Origin: a virus
Reading direction: 5' to 3' (one strand)
DNA length: 26,187 bases
IMG/VR virus record: IMGVR_UViG_3300029787_000279
Coordinates: 1 to 26,187 of that record
The notes below the pieces were generated by a model. The model saw nothing but the letters and a program-made list of their open reading frames with translations, was not told the DNA's origin and did no database searches. A program made the position numbers and the translations under genes. Positions 20,117 to 25,337 of the stretch are shown here, piece after piece; the first letter of the stretch is position 1; each line of letters begins with the position of its first letter.

Positions 20117-20147
20117 TAAAAAAAGGGCGGATTAACCGCCCTTTTGC
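20117..20147 (-). terminator. Strong bidirectional rho-independent terminator
   Basis: AAAAGGGCGG (20121-20130) pairs perfectly with CCGCCCTTTT (20136-20145) around ATTAA. On the minus strand a T7 tract follows the stem. It stands 20 nt after the stop of the 87-aa gene and separates the accessory region from the late operon. Confidence 0.92.
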
Positions 20148-20452: not shown

Positions 20453-20481
20453 TTAATACTCCCATTCTATTTTATAATCAA
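20453..20481 (-). promoter_or_regulatory. Promoter A (sigma70-like)
   Basis: TTGATT (20481-20476) and TATTAA (20458-20453) have a 17-bp spacer containing AATAGAATGGGAG. It drives the 87-aa gene. The spacer core is shared with promoter B and, in part, C and D. Confidence 0.75.
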
Positions 20482-20512
20482 GAACTTTCGAAAACTTTTT
20501 TACACGACCCAC

Positions 20513-20587
20513 GCAACTCCGCACGGGGTGTTGCTACCCTTTATACTATACTATAGGCACGACCCCCATCGCCACGATGGGCGATGG
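20513..20587. repeat. Hairpin-rich intergenic module 1
   Basis: The 188-bp stretch 20429-20616 has no gene. Behind promoter A it has an imperfect hairpin (GCAAC 20513-20517 with GTTGC 20530-20534), then TACTATACTATAG (20543-20555). An 8-bp perfect stem follows, CCATCGCC (20566-20573) with GGCGATGG (20580-20587), running into GATGGAG (20583-20589). The order (promoter, hairpin, ACTATA, ATGGAG) recurs in modules 2 and 3. Confidence 0.55.
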
Positions 20588-20616
20588 AGATAAACAGCGT
20601 AGGCAATTTATCGGTA

Positions 20617-21030
20617 CTATGCTGTTATTCTGAAATCAGCAACTTCTTCAATCGTTGCCTTTTTGTTTCTGCGAACTGTTGCCTCTTCATTAGGCATTGC
20701 TTGTATTTGTTTATATTGCGTTGGCACTTTGCATTTGTGGTAAGCCAACTCGCCTAACGCTTCTTTAACAAGCTTAGTATCAACCTTTACAGATAGCTTT
20801 TGTGATACATGAAGAGAGTAATCCTTACCATGTAACAGGTTAGCGTTCTCGCCAATACCCATATCAATGATTAAGTTACGATTAACTTTTATGAAGTCGT
20901 CTAATACTTTCTTCATTGTTAAGGCACGACCATAGGCATCTATGATAGCTTGTTTATTTCTTTTACTTACACTAGCTGAACTCTGATGAGCTTTTTCTAG
21001 CACTTCTAATATATTAACTGCTTTCGACAT
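20617..21030 (-). CDS. Hypothetical protein, 137 aa, early/accessory region
   Basis: The start is ATG 21030 (MSKAVNILEVLEKAHQSSAS), with AAAGGA at good spacing; the open frame extends further upstream but into promoter B. The N-terminal half is helical. The second half (GKDYSLHVSQKLSVKVDTKL, HKCKVPTQYKQIQAMP) has alternating strands and helices. I recall similar proteins in marine phages near nucleases and polymerases, without known function. It is the only gene of the unit driven by promoter B. Confidence 0.7.
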   Translation of the reverse strand: MSKAVNILEVLEKAHQSSASVSKRNKQAIIDAYGRALTMKKVLDDFIKVNRNLIIDMGIGENANLLHGKDYSLHVSQKLSVKVDTKLVKEALGELAYHKCKVPTQYKQIQAMPNEEATVRRNKKATIEEVADFRITA

Positions 21031-21064
21031 TATTTTATCCTTTCGTCTTTCTGTTAATACTCCC

Positions 21065-21093
21065 TTTATATCCCATTCTATTTTACTTGTCAA
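21065..21093 (-). promoter_or_regulatory. Promoter B (consensus sigma70)
   Basis: TTGACA (21093-21088) and TATAAA (21070-21065) have a 17-bp spacer holding AAAATAGAATGGGA. A second GGGAGTATTAA follows the -10 box, matching that of promoter A. This is the best consensus promoter in the window. Confidence 0.88.
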
Positions 21094-21104
21094 ATCTTTT
21101 TTTT

Positions 21105-21197
21105 CACAGGAACTTCCGTAGAACTCTGTTCGGGGACTCCTGTGTAACTATACTAATATACCCCAGCACCTGCATCGGCAATGCAATGGAGATGGAG
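21105..21197. repeat. Long hairpin and ATGGAG repeats, intergenic module 2
   Basis: CACAGGA (21105-21111) pairs with TCCTGTG (21138-21144). Inside, CCG and GAAC pair with GTTC and CGG around TCT, giving a 40-nt rod-like fold with one internal loop. ACTATACTAATATA and the repeat AATGGAGATGGAG (21185-21197) follow. No T-tract follows on the transcribed strand, so this is not an ordinary terminator. Confidence 0.6.
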
Positions 21198-21198
21198 A

Positions 21199-21348
21199 CT
21201 AGAAGTACACCAGTGTCCAATCAATCTTCTGCCAGAGTCCGGAGATCCACAGAACTACACCTGTCGTCAGCAGCACGGTGTGCTGCGGGAACAATGCAAC
21301 CAATATGCACCAGGCAAAGAATGCAGCGCCAATGTAATGGAGAATCAT
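21199..21348 (-). CDS. 49-aa membrane protein
   Basis: ATG 21348 overlaps the preceding stop (ATGA) and the frame ends with TAG at 21199. The protein starts MILHYIGAAFFAWCILVALF, with a first span at residues 4-20. A second hydrophobic stretch follows (24-38, TGVVLWISGLW) and the end is KIDWTLVYF. Two spans in a hairpin are likely. The function is unknown; superinfection exclusion or a second holin are guesses. ATGGAG repeats begin right at its stop codon. Confidence 0.65.
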   Translation of the reverse strand: MILHYIGAAFFAWCILVALFPQHTVLLTTGVVLWISGLWQKIDWTLVYF

Positions 21349-21656
21349 GCTATTCCAATCATCTCTTGCATCTCATCCCACTCAGGTCCCTGCTGCACCT
21401 CCAGCTTAGCACCGTCGAACCAGTCCATATACCAATACTCTAGGCGATGTAGTTCTTTGTGTTCGTTAACGTACCCGCGGAGCTCGTCGCTCGGGCCGCC
21501 CCAAGAGAACTGCCAACGCCAGTATCCCTCTGGCTGATCATCCCAGGTATGCGGTTCAACGTAATCAAAGCCCAGGGGCTCAAACTCATTATTTCCAATA
21601 TCTTTTTTACGGCTCTGCCACTGTTCTTCTACTAAATCTTTACATCTCTCAGTCAT
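21345..21656 (-). CDS. Acidic aromatic-rich hypothetical protein, 103 aa
   Basis: The start is ATG 21656 because AAGGA stands at the right distance; ATG 21662 would overlap it. The protein (MTERCKDLVEEQWQSRKKDI) is rich in Trp, Glu and Asp. It contains YWRWQFSWGGPSDELRGYV and LHRLEYWYMDWFDGAKLEV. A WGGPSDE...YWYMDWFDGA pattern occurs in small proteins of phages and plasmids, which I recall without a function. The strong negative charge would also suit a DNA-mimic or anti-defence role; that is speculation. It is the first gene behind promoter C, coupled to the 49-aa membrane protein. Confidence 0.7.
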   Translation of the reverse strand: MTERCKDLVEEQWQSRKKDIGNNEFEPLGFDYVEPHTWDDQPEGYWRWQFSWGGPSDELRGYVNEHKELHRLEYWYMDWFDGAKLEVQQGPEWDEMQEMIGIA

Positions 21657-21726
21657 GTGCATTCCTTTCTAGTGGGGCTGGCGTCCACGGAACTTCCAAA
21701 CGGATTCGGTACCGGCCCCTGATACT

Positions 21727-21755
21727 TATATAGTCCCATCTTATTAGATAGTCAA
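21727..21755 (-). promoter_or_regulatory. Promoter C (sigma70-like)
   Basis: TTGACT (21755-21750) and TATATA (21732-21727) have a 17-bp spacer ATCTAATAAGATGGGAC, related to those of A, B and D. The leader to the ATG is about 65 nt and contains GGGGC and GCCCC arms that can pair, so it may be structured. Confidence 0.82.
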
Positions 21756-21814
21756 GGGCAAAAGAAACTTTTGTTCCACGGAAACCAGACTGGTGTCACC
21801 TTCCCCTATCCTTA

Positions 21815-21960
21815 CTACTATAGTAGAGCTCACATCAGCTACCACAATGGAAATGGAGAACGCTACGGCTGTACCGGCAGCTGCACCAGCAGCTCCTGGA
21901 TCTTAAACTATTACTGTTTTCTTTGCTTCCACAATGGAGAATGGAGAATGGAGAAGGTAG
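21815..21960. repeat. Palindrome and AATGGAG repeats, intergenic module 3
   Basis: CTACTATAGTAG (21815-21826) is a perfect palindrome. AATGGA-AATGGAG (21846-21858) follows. Then come three perfect tandem 7-mers AATGGAG (21933-21953) with a degenerate fourth (AAGGTAG). Each AATGGA block is preceded by CCACA. A further cluster lies at 22026-22052. The last blocks are inside the nuclease reading frame. Confidence 0.65.
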
Positions 21961-22337
21961 TCAGTCACCTGAGTCCACGCTGCCTGGGATGCGGGGAGTG
22001 GGACTACCAAACGTGGCTCACTGGCGATGGAGAACGGCAATGGAGAATGGAGAAGAAATGACGGAAAGATGTAGAGTAACCTCTGTCTGAGGGTCTGGAG
22101 CATAATAAACGCTCTGCCACCATGCAAGGTATGGCGAAAATGCCACGAGTGTTGGAAGGGACTTAATCTAATATGGTTACTCTGAGTTACTTTAAGTTCG
22201 ACCCAAACATCAATGCCATCTGAGATCCCGTGCAAGTCAGGTATGCCTGAACCAGCCCATGATTCTATCCTTGTCCAATGGATATCTTTCTCCGTATTCT
22301 TCTTTACAAGCTTCCAAAGTTTAGACTCAGGTTTCAT
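21903..22337 (-). CDS. VRR-NUC/Holliday-junction-resolvase-type nuclease
   Basis: This 144-aa protein has the PD-(D/E)xK pattern of small VRR-NUC enzymes: Glu4 in KPESKLW, Asp34 in GSGIPDLHG, Glu47-Leu-Lys49 in WVELKVT, and Gln62 in LSPFQHSW, then GGRAFIML. It probably cuts branched DNA during replication, recombination or packaging. ATG 22337 lies 1 nt after the CCA end of tRNA-Lys, so tRNA processing would leave an almost leaderless message; a frame extension upstream to 22373 would be inside the tRNA. The C-terminal 45-50 residues are encoded by the AATGGAG repeats and are probably not part of the fold. Confidence 0.85.
   Translation of the reverse strand: MKPESKLWKLVKKNTEKDIHWTRIESWAGSGIPDLHGISDGIDVWVELKVTQSNHIRLSPFQHSWHFRHTLHGGRAFIMLQTLRQRLLYIFPSFLLHSPLPFSIASEPRLVVPLPASQAAWTQVTDYLLHSPFSIVEAKKTVIV
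22026..22052. repeat. Second AATGGAG repeat cluster
   Basis: GATGGAG (22026-22032), then AACGGC, then two tandem AATGGAG copies (22039-22052) followed by AAGAAATG. It lies in the nuclease coding region on the opposite strand, where it encodes LHSPLPFSI-like residues. Confidence 0.7.
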
Positions 22338-22338
22338 T

Positions 22339-22414
22339 TGGTGATCCCAGTAGGACTCGAACCTACGACCCATTCATTAAAAGTGAATTGCTCTACCATC
22401 TGAGCTATGGGATC
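22339..22414 (-). tRNA. tRNA-Lys (anticodon UUU)
   Basis: The 76-nt cloverleaf is complete. Acceptor GATCCCA pairs with TGGGATC. The D arm is GCTC-AGATGGTA-GAGC, the anticodon arm ATTCA-CTTTTAA-TGAAT with UUU at 34-36, the variable loop GGGTC, and the T arm GTAGG-TTCGAGT-CCTAC. A discriminator follows and CCA is encoded. It reads AAA/AAG codons, which are abundant in this AT-rich phage with many Lys-rich proteins. It overlaps the preceding stop codon by 2 nt and ends 1 nt before the nuclease ATG. Confidence 0.97.
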
Positions 22415-22589
22415 AAGAAGTAAGCCACATATACAAGAAACCAATGATACCCCAAAATAAAGCTTTTTGTCCAAAGTAAAACAATATCACACTAGGCAAC
22501 TCCCACCAGGAGGCTGCCAACTTATCAAGATTTGGCTCAACATCTGGAACTTGTATACTTTGATAAAATGTAAACTTATGATCTTTCAT
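22413..22589 (-). CDS. 58-aa membrane-anchored protein
   Basis: ATG 22589 overlaps the previous stop (ATGA). The protein starts MKDHKFTFYQSIQVPDVEPN. A C-terminal hydrophobic helix (residues 31-56, LPSVILFYFGQKALFWGIIG) ends MWLTS. It would be a C-tail-anchored membrane protein. The function is unknown. Its TGA stop shares two bases with the 5' end of the tRNA. An earlier in-frame ATG (22628) lies inside the preceding gene and lacks a binding site. Confidence 0.65.
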   Translation of the reverse strand: MKDHKFTFYQSIQVPDVEPNLDKLAASWWELPSVILFYFGQKALFWGIIGFLYMWLTS

Positions 22590-22711
22590 GGACACTTTTT
22601 CATAAGCTCTTGCAACTTCCAATACCATAAAATTCTAAACTCAAAGTGTTCTGCTGTGATCATGGCGTGTCGTAACCAACCCACACGATTCCAAAACAAC
22701 TGCTCTGTCAT
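22586..22711 (-). CDS. 41-aa aromatic-rich hypothetical protein
   Basis: ATG 22711 overlaps the previous stop (ATGA), with GGAG about 11 nt upstream. The frame ends TGA at 22586, overlapping the next ATG. The sequence is MTEQLFWNRVGWLRHAMITA, then EHFEFRILWYWKLQELMKKC and a final P. It is Trp/Phe-rich and helical, possibly peripheral to the membrane. I recall similar FWxRVxWLRHxMITAExFE peptides from marine phages. No function is known to me. Confidence 0.65.
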   Translation of the reverse strand: MTEQLFWNRVGWLRHAMITAEHFEFRILWYWKLQELMKKCP

Positions 22712-22926
22712 TTTCTATCATTCTCCTTAACATTAATTACTAACTCAACAGTTTTATCAGACCAACCACCAGTAACAGTTTCAAACCACTGATCTAATAA
22801 CGGAACTAATTTTTTCAGTTCAATACCATCAATACCGTCAAGACTATCCAATATACAATTCTTTTTATCTTTACCATTAGTCCACTTTGTACCAATGTTA
22901 TTCACTACATATTTATCTACATGCAT
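22708..22926 (-). CDS. 72-aa hypothetical protein
   Basis: The start is ATG 22926, with AAAGGAG at 7-8 nt. The open frame upstream runs through the leader and promoter D and is not likely to be translated. The protein (MHVDKYVVNNIGTKWTNGKD) has one Cys (KKNCILDSL) and a WFETVTGGWSDKTVELVINV segment. No family is recognised. It is the first gene of the unit that continues through two small proteins, tRNA-Lys and the nuclease. Confidence 0.65.
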   Translation of the reverse strand: MHVDKYVVNNIGTKWTNGKDKKNCILDSLDGIDGIELKKLVPLLDQWFETVTGGWSDKTVELVINVKENDRK

Positions 22927-22976
22927 AACTTTCTCCTTTTTCTGCTTACACTTTCTCGGCTCTCTAGAGGCGGTGG

Positions 22977-22990
22977 TGGTAAGCTTACCA
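22977..22990. promoter_or_regulatory. 14-bp palindrome just after promoter D (operator candidate)
   Basis: TGGTAAGCTTACCA is perfectly self-complementary and lies 8 bp beyond the -10 box of promoter D, over the expected transcription start. GGTAA/TTACC half-sites also occur in the repeat cluster at 23622-23710. Confidence 0.55.
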
Positions 22991-22997
22991 AGTTCGT

Positions 22998-23026
22998 TAT
23001 ATACTCCCAACTATTTAGATAGTCAA
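22998..23026 (-). promoter_or_regulatory. Promoter D (sigma70-like)
   Basis: TTGACT (23026-23021) and TATATA (23003-22998) have a 17-bp spacer ATCTAAATAGTTGGGAG. It overlaps the last codons of the terminase small subunit gene and drives the unit starting at 22926. Confidence 0.85.
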
Positions 23027-23559
23027 GACTTATTTTCTAATTCTTTTATTTCTTCAAACGAAGTTTCTATGCTGTGATCTTCCTTCAACTTTTGTATGGC
23101 TTTTTCTACTTCTTCTCTTTCCATAGAATCAATGGTGCCAGTTCTAATTTCTTTCCTGTCAACATACAAACCAACTATCGACCCACGACGATACTCTGCA
23201 GCAACGCTAGCTGCGTAAGATTTATCAGCTGCAGCCATATCTCTAATTCTTCGTAATGCAGATAAAGATCTCTGTTCATTACACTTATTTGCCTCATCCA
23301 TTGCATCTCTTTCTTTTTGCAAAGCTTCTGTCACAAGAGGATATCTATTGCCCAACATCTCTGCGGCTCTGACTTTTGCTGAACCAGGTGCATACCCAGC
23401 TTCAATCGCACACTGACGTCCTGTCTTAGTTCCTTCACCATGAATGTACAAAATAACAAATCTTCTCTGTAATGGAGTAATTCCTTTGTTGTAAACAAAG
23501 TCAGACGATGCCAATGGCATCTTATCTGGTTCTATCACTGCTATAGATGTTTCTTGCAT
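23023..23559 (-). CDS. terS: Terminase small subunit (Terminase_2-like)
   Basis: The 178-aa protein contains ITPLQRRFVILYIHGEG, GRQCAIEAGYAPGSAKVRAA and EMLGNRYPLVTEALQKE. This is the order of helices in the DNA-binding domain of the Terminase_2 family (LTPxQxxFVxxY...AAxxAGY...). A charged coiled-coil C-terminus (EREEVEKAIQKLKEDH) suits ring oligomerisation and TerL contact. It recognises the packaging site and recruits TerL. It stands 3.1 kb upstream of terL instead of next to it. No Shine-Dalgarno sequence precedes the ATG; TATAAA ends 4 nt upstream. Confidence 0.85.
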   Translation of the reverse strand: MQETSIAVIEPDKMPLASSDFVYNKGITPLQRRFVILYIHGEGTKTGRQCAIEAGYAPGSAKVRAAEMLGNRYPLVTEALQKERDAMDEANKCNEQRSLSALRRIRDMAAADKSYAASVAAEYRRGSIVGLYVDRKEIRTGTIDSMEREEVEKAIQKLKEDHSIETSFEEIKELENKS

Positions 23560-23753
23560 AGTATTTATAATTTAGTCATTATGCTGAAAAAAGCGCGTTT
23601 TTCTAGTAAAAAATAAATAAAAGGTTACTTTTGGTTACTTCTATAAAAATGTAAAAGTAACCTAAAAAGGTAAGTATTCTGCTATAAGTTACATGGTTAC
23701 CTAGGTTACCTGTATTCTGGATAAAAAATAATTTTAATTTATTAAGCTAAAAA
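23560..23753. repeat. GGTTAC iteron-like cluster in AT-rich intergenic region
   Basis: This gene-free stretch carries GGTTAC at 23623, 23633, 23695 and 23704, an inverted copy (AGTAACCT 23656-23663, exactly complementary to AGGTTACT 23622-23629), and GTTAC at 23688. Pairs are spaced 9-10 bp, one helical turn. AT-rich tracts flank the cluster (23605-23622, 23720-23745), and GCGC flanked by A5 and T5 lies at 23585-23602. It could be a replication origin, a packaging site for TerS, or an operator for terS. Confidence 0.6.
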
Positions 23754-23767
23754 CATCTATAGAGATG
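23749..23767 (-). terminator. Weak terminator after the CxxC gene
   Basis: On the minus strand CATCT and AGATG form a 5-bp stem around CTAT, followed by TTTTT. It starts 6 nt after the stop codon at 23773. The short stem makes efficiency doubtful. Confidence 0.5.
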
Positions 23768-23772
23768 ACCAA

Positions 23773-23973
23773 TTAACCAAAAAACTTTGGATCGTCTCTA
23801 ACTAATCTTAATGCTTTATCAAGTGATTCACGTCCATCTGTCATTATTTTTTCCCATTCTTCAGGGGTATACGTTCGGTCGTGTTTGGGGTCGAAAAACT
23901 TAAAATGGTAATTTTTGCAATTACCGCACTTATAAATTTTTCTTACTGGGCTGTTTGGAAGTTCTATGTACAT
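23773..23973 (-). CDS. Small putative zinc-binding protein
   Basis: With start ATG 23973 (AAGGA upstream) the protein is 66 aa: MYIELPNSPVRKIYKCGNCK with Cys16-x-x-Cys19, then His23 and His31 nearby, then TYTPEEWEKIM and a helical acidic/basic C-terminus ending DDPKFFG. The CxxC with two histidines suggests one zinc site. An upstream ATG (24009) would add 12 residues but has no good binding site. It overlaps the end of the preceding gene by 44 nt. The function is unknown. Confidence 0.65.
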   Translation of the reverse strand: MYIELPNSPVRKIYKCGNCKNYHFKFFDPKHDRTYTPEEWEKIMTDGRESLDKALRLVRDDPKFFG

Positions 23974-24142
23974 AGCGTTTAATCCTTTGTAAGGGAAAAA
24001 GCACCACATTCTCGGGTAATTGCTTCTTAAAATATATTGAATCCATGACTTTCATACACTCAATTTTCTCATATTGATTGGTCCGTGATGCAAGCATCGC
24101 GTCTAGTAAGTCTCTTTGTTTTAAGATCTCTTGATGATCCAT
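23930..24142 (-). CDS. 70-aa helical hypothetical protein
   Basis: AGAGGAGTAAC gives a strong ribosome binding site for ATG 24142. The protein starts MDHQEILKQRDLLDAMLASR and continues NQYEKIECMKVMDSIYFKKQ, two helices; the C-terminus is basic (QRIKRYVHRTSKQPSKKNL). No family is recognised. It follows a 143-bp leader-like stretch that contains hairpins. Confidence 0.65.
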   Translation of the reverse strand: MDHQEILKQRDLLDAMLASRTNQYEKIECMKVMDSIYFKKQLPENVVLFPLQRIKRYVHRTSKQPSKKNL

Positions 24143-24163
24143 GTTACTCCTCTCTCCTTAATT

Positions 24164-24228
24164 TGCCCCCACCTGCCGTAGTTGCAGTGCAGGGGCACTC
24201 TTGGAAGGAAATATGAAAAAATCATATT
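24164..24228. repeat. Two inverted repeats before the 70-aa gene
   Basis: AATATGA and TCATATT form a perfect 7-bp repeat around AAAAA (24210-24228). A GC-rich repeat follows closer to the gene (24164-24195, GCCCC with GGGGC, CCTGC with GCAGG). No good promoter is visible in 24143-24285, so these may be RNA hairpins within the operon. Confidence 0.5.
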
Positions 24229-24285
24229 AACTCCAAAATAGAGAAAGAAAGTGGGTTACGCAACTAAAAAGGTATGTAATCGTCC

Positions 24286-24525
24286 TTAATTATTACTATC
24301 GGTTGGGATTGGATAAATTTTGTAGTTTTCAAAACCTTCTGGCTCAAGCGCTGGGCCGTGGTAAATGCAAGGATTTCCGTCTCCATCATCCCACGATTGC
24401 GGATAATATTCTCCAGCCTTCGTTTCGCCAGACGAGTCACAAACTTTACATTGTTCAATTGTTTCTTCTGCTTCAAATTTAAGTCGTAAAAATCCATTGC
24501 CTTTACAATTATGGCAAATAACCAT
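24286..24525 (-). CDS. DnaJ-type zinc-ribbon-like small protein
   Basis: This 79-aa protein carries two CxxC motifs: Cys4/Cys7 in ICHNCKGNGF (CxxCxGxG, as in DnaJ repeats) and Cys26/Cys29 in QCKVCDSSGE. Together they should bind one zinc. A C-terminal acidic, aromatic part follows (GEYYPQSWDDGDGNPCIYHG). Possible roles are protein-protein contact or nucleic acid binding; nothing more specific is visible. An overlapping frame (24264-24536) has no such motifs and is rejected. It overlaps the previous 51-aa gene by 17 nt. Confidence 0.75.
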   Translation of the reverse strand: MVICHNCKGNGFLRLKFEAEETIEQCKVCDSSGETKAGEYYPQSWDDGDGNPCIYHGPALEPEGFENYKIYPIPTDSNN

Positions 24526-24664
24526 AGCGCCCCCAAAGTATCTTACGAAGTCGTTCCCACCTCATGCGGTTAGCAACTTCTTGTATGTTCCGTGGGTCAC
24601 GTTTAGCATACTTTGATACTTTAAGATACGCATCTACTAATTTTTTTCTACAATCACTTTTCAT
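24509..24664 (-). CDS. 51-aa basic hypothetical protein
   Basis: ATG 24664 to TAA 24509 encodes MKSDCRKKLVDAYLKVSKYA, then KRDPRNIQEVANRMRWERLR and KILWGRYGYLP. It is basic and helical. Its start overlaps the end of the preceding 40-aa gene, and it overlaps the next gene. Support is the coupling chain and sensible composition; no family is recognised. Confidence 0.55.
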   Translation of the reverse strand: MKSDCRKKLVDAYLKVSKYAKRDPRNIQEVANRMRWERLRKILWGRYGYLP

Positions 24665-24776
24665 CTATTTTTCGTTTCTTTGCTTCTTGTTTTACTAAAT
24701 GTGTTATTTCCATACCTGCTGACCTGTCATCCAATGCAGCAAGTTTCTTTAATAAATTATAGGTGTCAATTGCCAC
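24654..24776 (-). CDS. 40-aa hypothetical protein (GTG start)
   Basis: GTG 24776 to TGA 24654 encodes VAIDTYNLLKKLAALDDRSA then GMEITHLVKQEAKKRKIDEK (first residue Met in vivo). It starts inside the end of the preceding gene and ends inside the start of the next. It is amphipathic and helical. Evidence is limited to the frame filling an otherwise gene-free gap, so this is tentative. Confidence 0.45.
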   Translation of the reverse strand: MAIDTYNLLKKLAALDDRSAGMEITHLVKQEAKKRKIDEK

Positions 24777-25098
24777 TGCCACCGACTTGAACTTCTTGAT
24801 ATCCATCTTCATCCTCTGGTTTATCATTGTACTTATGATCTAAAAACTCAACATCACCAAGGTCAATTGATGGTTGACTTTGTGAGTGGGCCGTGGGCGG
24901 TGTAAAACGTCTGCCACAATTTTTAGCAAGTTTCATCCATGTTTCGGCATATTCTTTATAATGTTCTGCCATAGGTTCATCACCCATTGATTTAGAATCA
25001 CTAGCACGCATAATATTAATCTTGGCTCTAGCTAATCTATTACCAAGTTTAAAGCCTTCTTTAAATACAGCTTCGTAGTCTTCTTTTAATATCGTCAT
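24766..25098 (-). CDS. 110-aa hypothetical protein
   Basis: The start is ATG 25098 with AGAAGGAG upstream; the frame extends further only into a structured leader. The protein starts MTILKEDYEAVFKEGFKLGN. A helical region (SMGDEPMAEHYKEYAETWMK) and a disordered acidic C-terminus (FLDHKYNDKPEDEDGYQEVQ, ending VGGSGN) follow. The acidic tail resembles that of single-stranded-DNA-binding phage proteins, but no OB-fold core is visible, so I make no functional claim. It is the first gene after promoter E. Confidence 0.65.
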   Translation of the reverse strand: MTILKEDYEAVFKEGFKLGNRLARAKINIMRASDSKSMGDEPMAEHYKEYAETWMKLAKNCGRRFTPPTAHSQSQPSIDLGDVEFLDHKYNDKPEDEDGYQEVQVGGSGN

Positions 25099-25122
25099 TA
25101 CTTTCTCCTTCTTAAGTGAGTA

Positions 25123-25300
25123 GGGGGAATCTTTGACTACCCCCAACCTTTTCCCGACAAATCAACCTATAAGAGTTAACTAGTACTTCAGTACCACCCT
25201 TGGTTACCTCAGACACTCGTCCGTACTTCACCTCAAGTGTGCCTTACTACCTTGTTACAGTTGTTCAGCCATACTCTGAGAACCTTGCAATGTTCTCATT
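25123..25300 (-). ncRNA. Structured 5' leader of about 200 nt (candidate regulatory RNA)
   Basis: Between promoter E and ATG 25098 there is no gene but several hairpins. They are GAGAAC/GTTCTC (25278-25297), ACACT/AGTGT (25213-25240), GTAC-TTCA-GTAC (25183-25194) and GGGGG/CCCCC (25123-25144), the last just before the ribosome binding site. An AGGGTGGTAC string (minus strand, 25200-25191) resembles a T-box core, but the rest of that structure is absent. It matches no riboswitch class I can name. Confidence 0.45.
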
Positions 25301-25308
25301 TAATTGTT

Positions 25309-25337
25309 TATATAATGTAATTTAATGGGAGTGTCAA
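25309..25337 (-). promoter_or_regulatory. Promoter E (sigma70-like, inverted spacer motif)
   Basis: TTGACA (25337-25332) and TATATA (25314-25309) are 17 bp apart. The spacer starts CTCCCATT, which is AATGGGAG read on the other strand, the same octamer that lies next to the -10 box in promoter A. It overlaps the end of the 68-aa gene. Confidence 0.85.

Follow-up and report, generated by a model that had tools for sequence, protein, structure and literature searches.

A five-base element, TGGGA, recurs in five promoters of a 26,187-bp virus fragment (IMG/VR; the whole stretch is referred to as the window) and is very probably an operator, as judged by its behavior across related phage sequences. 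The five promoters, named A to E, are of the sigma70 type and lie on the minus strand. On balance, we favor the explanation, drawn from sequence comparison and structure models, that a ribbon-helix-helix (RHH) protein of 50 residues, encoded behind promoter E, would repress all five promoters through these TGGGA operators.

The terminase of the window shares 61-66% identity with those of the Pelagibacter phages HTVC027P and HTVC023P and of phage 023Pt_psg01, and the gene order from polA via the terminases to the capsid is that of HTVC027P in reverse. Because of this identity and the matching gene order, the window is treated as a fragment of an uncultivated HTVC023P-type pelagiphage (a SAR11-type ocean phage), and its host is presumably a SAR11 bacterium. 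The HTVC023P-type group accounts for about 7.6% of ocean viromic reads, and its studied member HTVC027P, which carries no RNA polymerase gene, is described as obligately lytic (PMC12753301).

The preliminary description of the window listed five same-strand promoters of the form TTGA(C/T)N-17 bp-TAT(A/T)(T/A)A, all of which are present (Table 1). Their -35 and -10 hexamers are intergenic, fall within the 16-18 bp spacing taken to define the sigma70 type, and are kept in relatives. A generic sigma70 scan counted 25 promoter-like sites against 34.7 expected and so showed no excess; the hexamers alone therefore do not carry the evidence, which comes from the shared element and its retention among relatives. 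The same description proposed an octamer common to the spacers. A common spacer element is indeed real, but the window has just two exact copies of the octamer AATGGGAG, one in A and one, inverted, in E. The sole 5-mer common to all five spacers is TGGGA (TCCCA when inverted). When five non-coding 17-mers were drawn at random from this region, they shared a 5-mer with at least three G/C positions in only 2 of 200,000 draws, and shuffled spacers did so once in 200,000.

The element is strongly conserved. Relatives carrying the terminase were gathered independently of the motif, and the best promoter of each orthologous gene was picked blind to the spacer. Among the distinct strong orthologous promoters, TGGGA is found in 10/11 for A, 22/22 for B, 19/19 for C and 6/7 for D (57 of 59 together). 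Relatives that keep the -35 and -10 boxes and lose the element, which had been named as the pattern that would speak against a regulatory site, are thus not what was seen: orthologous promoters retain TGGGA. The late promoter before the large terminase gene (terL) contains it in none of eight distinct orthologues, and it is nearly absent before other genes. A broader scan of promoter-like sites recovered TGGGA in 51 of 79 distinct intergenic sites and in 10 of the 60 that fall within genes. In G001, a relative of 60 kb that is nearly complete, five such elements are linked to promoters; they follow the order E, D, C, B, A and all lie between polA and terL. Promoters of this kind with TGGGA were not found in DSL-LC04, a phage of about 50% guanine plus cytosine.

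Most commonly, the element abuts the -10 box, but its place is not fixed. It is displaced by 5 bp to mid-spacer in one relative (L040), inverted beside the -35 box in E and in two others (L017 and L027), and inverted at mid-spacer in L050-L064. In 023Pt_psg01 and HTVC023P, it is found downstream of the -10 box in either orientation. When the -10-abutting sites are compared with all the others, the core ATGGGA is present in both groups, with little else in common. Because the element shifts and flips while the core promoter stays, it is read as an operator and not as a sigma contact. Conservation, mobility and the absence from the terL promoters thus support the site suggested at the outset, one for a phage or host regulator coordinating the accessory units, its core being TGGGA with a preferred preceding A in place of the octamer. 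The full architecture, TTGAC-N11-ATGGGA-N-TATATA, matched at least 120 viral contig stretches, compared with 20 and 6 viral matches for two control patterns of equal length and base composition. Proteins like those of the window are encoded at 113 of the 115 loci checked, which places them in this phage group, with polA identities down to about 52-58%.

Table 1. Promoters, putative operator cores and associated features of the window (all on the minus strand).
Feature	Position	Strand	Description
Promoter A	20481-20453	-	TTGATT-ATAAAATAGAATGGGAG-TATTAA, before the 87-residue gene
Putative operator core of A	20460-20464	-	TGGGA, directly upstream of the -10 box
Promoter B	21093-21065	-	TTGACA-AGTAAAATAGAATGGGA-TATAAA, before the 137-residue gene
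Putative operator cores of B	21061-21075	-	TGGGA at 21071-21075; second core AGGGA 10 bp off, adjoining the -10 box
Promoter C	21755-21727	-	TTGACT-ATCTAATAAGATGGGAC-TATATA, before the 105-residue gene; putative operator core 21734-21738
Promoter D	23026-22998	-	TTGACT-ATCTAAATAGTTGGGAG-TATATA, before the 71-residue gene; putative operator core 23005-23009
Promoter E	25337-25309	-	TTGACA-CTCCCATTAAATTACAT-TATATA; inverted core TCCCA at 25326-25330 adjoining the -35 box; before the RHH operon
Unit A gene, 87 residues	20165-20428	-	
Unit B gene, 137 residues	20617-21030	-	
Unit C gene, 105 residues	21345-21662	-	
Unit D gene, 71 residues	22708-22923	-	
Intrinsic-terminator-like hairpin	20121-20145	-	Between unit A and the terminase operon
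RHH protein, 50 residues	24654-24806	-	MDIKKFKSVAVAIDTYNLLKKLAALDDRSAGMEITHLVKQEAKKRKIDEK; proposed TGGGA binder and autoregulated repressor
Gene of unknown function, 110 residues	24766-25098	-	First gene behind promoter E
Sub-threshold match to manA RNA (RF01745)	25113-25297	-	5' leader of the predicted promoter E transcript, before the candidate repressor operon

The candidate binder is the RHH protein, which is among the best conserved small proteins of the close relatives. More divergent members are gp13 of HTVC023P, gp21 of HTVC027P and a protein of 023Pt_psg01; tblastn also recovered the first two, not that of 023Pt_psg01. By profile search, the window and six further HTVC023P-type sequences, either genomes or large fragments, each have one clear member. 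No clear member was found by this search in DSL-LC04, in which a weak match (0.24) corresponds to the gene after polA. The window protein searched alone had no match in Pfam or the PDB, and it is the other family members that gave matches: 7 of 27 matched the Pfam model RHH_5 (best 6.6e-6), next to other RHH models, and 9 of 27 matched the PHROG family of Arc-like repressors. The PDB profile matches of the family include the RHH proteins AvtR, pArc and MatP. An AlphaFold2 monomer model, built with contig-derived alignment rows only, has helices at residues 13-25 and 30-45 (predicted local distance difference test, pLDDT, 81). Its top Foldseek matches are Arc and other RHH domains, none with an E-value below 0.1 for so short a chain, and the best Arc chains share about 25% identity with it. 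The Arc profile itself matched one of 27 members weakly (E 0.22). Filed as a member of the RHH (Arc/MetJ/CopG) superfamily and not as Arc proper, the protein has, ahead of its two helices, a predicted short N-terminal strand in which K5, K7 and S8 are invariant among the collected members, an invariance partly built in by a collection pattern that required a K-aromatic-K-S strand. Layout, co-occurrence and fold suggest that it is probably this protein that binds the TGGGA element. Two other candidate regulators, the GP88/DUF7227 proteins and a 205-residue protein annotated as helix-turn-helix in DSL-LC04, were set aside, as Pfam detects no DNA-binding domain in either.

The layout around promoter E and its equivalents, with an operator over the promoter of the RHH gene itself, is that of an autoregulated repressor. 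Among E-type sites with enough downstream DNA, an RHH gene follows within 1.3 kb on the same strand in 48 of 50, and in most subfamilies the RHH gene or its operon is preceded by operators. The distance varies. For promoter E and its orthologues, the operator is about 520 bp upstream of the RHH gene; L017 and L027 have two operator sites, 22 bp apart; L024 and its relatives have sites at -570, -548 and -504; and in the KFKSVSV subfamily and 023Pt_psg01, the operator is directly 5' of the RHH start codon. In the window, the space between promoter E and its operon is occupied by a full-length match to manA RNA (44 bits, E=5e-9, below the gathering score of 55.2), and the homologous leader of the 60-kb relative also matches (39 bits, 8.8e-9). 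The manA RNA, a candidate riboswitch, has been described from marine sequences and from cyanophages. Its match starts at 25297, just downstream of the -10 box of E, which gives indirect support for a transcription start there.

In the proposed mechanism, A-E would be host sigma70-type promoters of small early or middle units between polA and terL, each overlapping an operator with the core (A)TGGGA. The host sigma70 polymerase would fire them early, and the RHH protein would then accumulate from the promoter E operon. Bound to TGGGA as a dimer or short cooperative array, it would block host RNA polymerase and close all five promoters, including its own, by occlusion. The late terL promoter, having no operator, would stay open, and the A-E units would obtain one shared, transient time course distinct from that of terL. 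The action is quite likely to be repression rather than activation, because the placement and orientation of the site are free. Both the timing of A-E in the window phage and their transcription starts are predictions from sequence. The operator and its candidate repressor would provide a testable mechanism for temporal control in the HTVC023P-type group, and the TGGGA operator could serve as a sequence tag for locating early accessory genes in a group of phages of which most are uncultivated.

Expression data exist for HTVC027P infecting HTCC1062. RNA sequencing defined two extra temporal clusters, which were left unexplained, and left all early genes without a function. In these clusters, gp33 and gp34 alone form one, peaking at 6-9 h, and gp30 alone forms the other and rises again late (PMC12753301). 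Operator-like elements are carried by the promoters of gp34/gp33: a TGGGA promoter, TTGACAATGGGATAG, and two TATAGGAT promoters are present upstream, the latter being TTGACA promoters with TAGTATAGGAT, one just 5' of each of the two genes. Near gp30, TGGGA falls within the first codons of the gene and may be a coincidence. At an HTVC027P promoter (L086, 19224-19262), an inverted repeat, ATAGGATAGTCCTAT, was observed, possibly a two-fold symmetric version of the operator.

Several points weigh against repression by the RHH protein. TGGGA is short, so that a single site gives little specificity, and most of the A-E sites have no clear second half-site. An activator that works from the position near the -10 box is possible. 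Two subfamilies, KWKSVLV and KYKSVAI, showed no clear operator linked to a promoter immediately upstream of the RHH gene, and the invariance of the RHH strand is partly a product of the way in which members were collected. Furthermore, the RHH gene and several promoters of HTVC027P carry TAGGA or TCCTA and not TGGGA; TAGGA is the enriched promoter 5-mer of this phage, found in 4 of 10 non-coding promoters and also before its RHH gene. This variant is suggestive of co-divergence of operator and protein, although the promoters that support it are few and the numbers small.

The element could also be an operator for another phage protein, or one through which transcription is activated, which is rather unlikely. 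Most of the phage genes lack an assigned function, in many lineages the element lies immediately upstream of the -10 box, a location from which some activators act, and the late second rise of gp30 would fit such a role. However, the site may lie over the -35 box, the spacer, the -10 box or the start, in both orientations, which suits occlusion. Moreover, among 54 open reading frames of a 60-kb relative, no other regulator appears in Pfam or among the first 25 PHROG families listed, and it is the RHH gene that sits behind an operator in most subfamilies.

It is improbable that TGGGA is the site of a SAR11 host regulator adopted by the phage, even though HTVC027P, without its own polymerase, relies on host transcription (PMC12753301). 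Across 257 Gb of genomes from bacteria and archaea, the promoter-plus-TGGGA pattern had 22 scattered matches, none of them in a SAR11-titled record, against about 30 expected by chance if 17 bases are fixed and base frequencies are equal, a result that covers this architecture only.

Recognition by the host sigma factor itself, with TGGGA acting as an extended -10 type element or with TAGAAT as the true -10 box followed by a GGGA discriminator, has very little probability. TGGGA does abut the -10 box in many lineages, and the TAGAAT-GGGA of A and B resembles a -10 box with an optimal discriminator. In other lineages, however, the element is inverted or lies past the -10 box, and the late terL promoters do without it. 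TAGAAT as the real -10 box was dropped, since it is not kept in C, D or the relatives, where TTGAC-17-TATA is, and since the element flips. Least credible of all is that A-E arose when recombination spread copies of a single ancestral module, the shared spacer reflecting descent without function: A and B do have a 15-bp identical stretch in common and the leaders behind promoter C are exchanged between genomes, but TGGGA persists where the spacer bases around it diverge, it moves and flips, it is retained in lineages with DNA polymerases only about 55% identical, and the loss from many orthologous promoters that mere descent predicts is not seen.

Among known systems, Arc of the Salmonella phage P22 is the closest in fold. 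It is likewise a small phage RHH protein of about 50 residues, it is the best match to the predicted structure, and promoter-overlapping operators are shared with the model proposed here. Arc belongs to the immunity region of a temperate phage. The pelagiphage family differs in its strand residues (K5, K7 and S8), in the asymmetric pentamer that forms the operator core, and in being associated with about five promoters, in a group of which the studied member is described as obligately lytic. In comparison, the RHH dimer of Omega (ParB) from plasmid pSM19035 recognizes WATCACW, a short repeat without palindromic symmetry, in either direct or inverted form at promoters, its own among them; it needs at least two repeats for high affinity and also serves partition (PMC9499535), whereas the sites described here are mostly single and occasionally form pairs, 10 or 22 bp apart. 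SvtR, a viral RHH regulator from the archaeal virus SIRV1, likewise represses the promoter of its own gene and also binds at a few further sites in the virus, but it works with archaeal transcription machinery, its main site is about 80 nucleotides from the core promoter, and its consensus is a longer inverted repeat (PMC5569661).

Two further systems resemble the arrangement of sites and are built on other proteins. In archaeal rudiviruses with Aca8, as with bacterial Aca repressors, a shared promoter-plus-operator marks many small single-gene early units, which are thought to be shut off in rudiviruses by a virus DNA-binding protein (PMC11065993). Aca8 has a winged helix-turn-helix, and the pelagiphage units are known here from sequence, with no anti-defence role implied. 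The stoperators of cluster A mycobacteriophages are short asymmetric sites along the genome bound by one phage repressor; they differ in being genome-wide and in belonging to a temperate immunity repressor that is not of the RHH type and also stops elongation (PMC9283540).

Some other features of the region were observed. Between promoter C and its gene (21660-21726, minus strand), relatives carry differing stem-loop cassettes of about 40-90 nt, for example of the TGTGGCTACCGAATCCGTTT...AACGGCCACA or the AGGCGAGGGTTTCGCTCTGG...CGCCT type, single or in tandem. These cassettes are exchanged between genomes while the promoter stays (L004, L006, L008, L023, L030, L036, L039, L040, L044 and L046); in the window, the cassette region has no Rfam match. 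For the 137-residue protein of unit B, the structure model was too poor for use (mean pLDDT 54). A transfer RNA gene, tRNA-Lys (TTT), at 22339-22414 (minus strand), lies within the set of accessory units, downstream of unit D. The neighboring nuclease-like gene (21903-22373, minus strand) matches a PHROG helicase/endonuclease family; its longest open reading frame starts inside the tRNA gene, and its real start is probably near 22337. Short repeats of the AATGGAGAATGGAGAA type are found in and around this gene (21845-22054, plus strand). Finally, the small terminase gene of the window (23023-23559, minus strand) has the same direction as the large one, while the two are opposite in HTVC027P (L086, 15254-15781) and 023Pt_psg01 (L090, 14383-14916).

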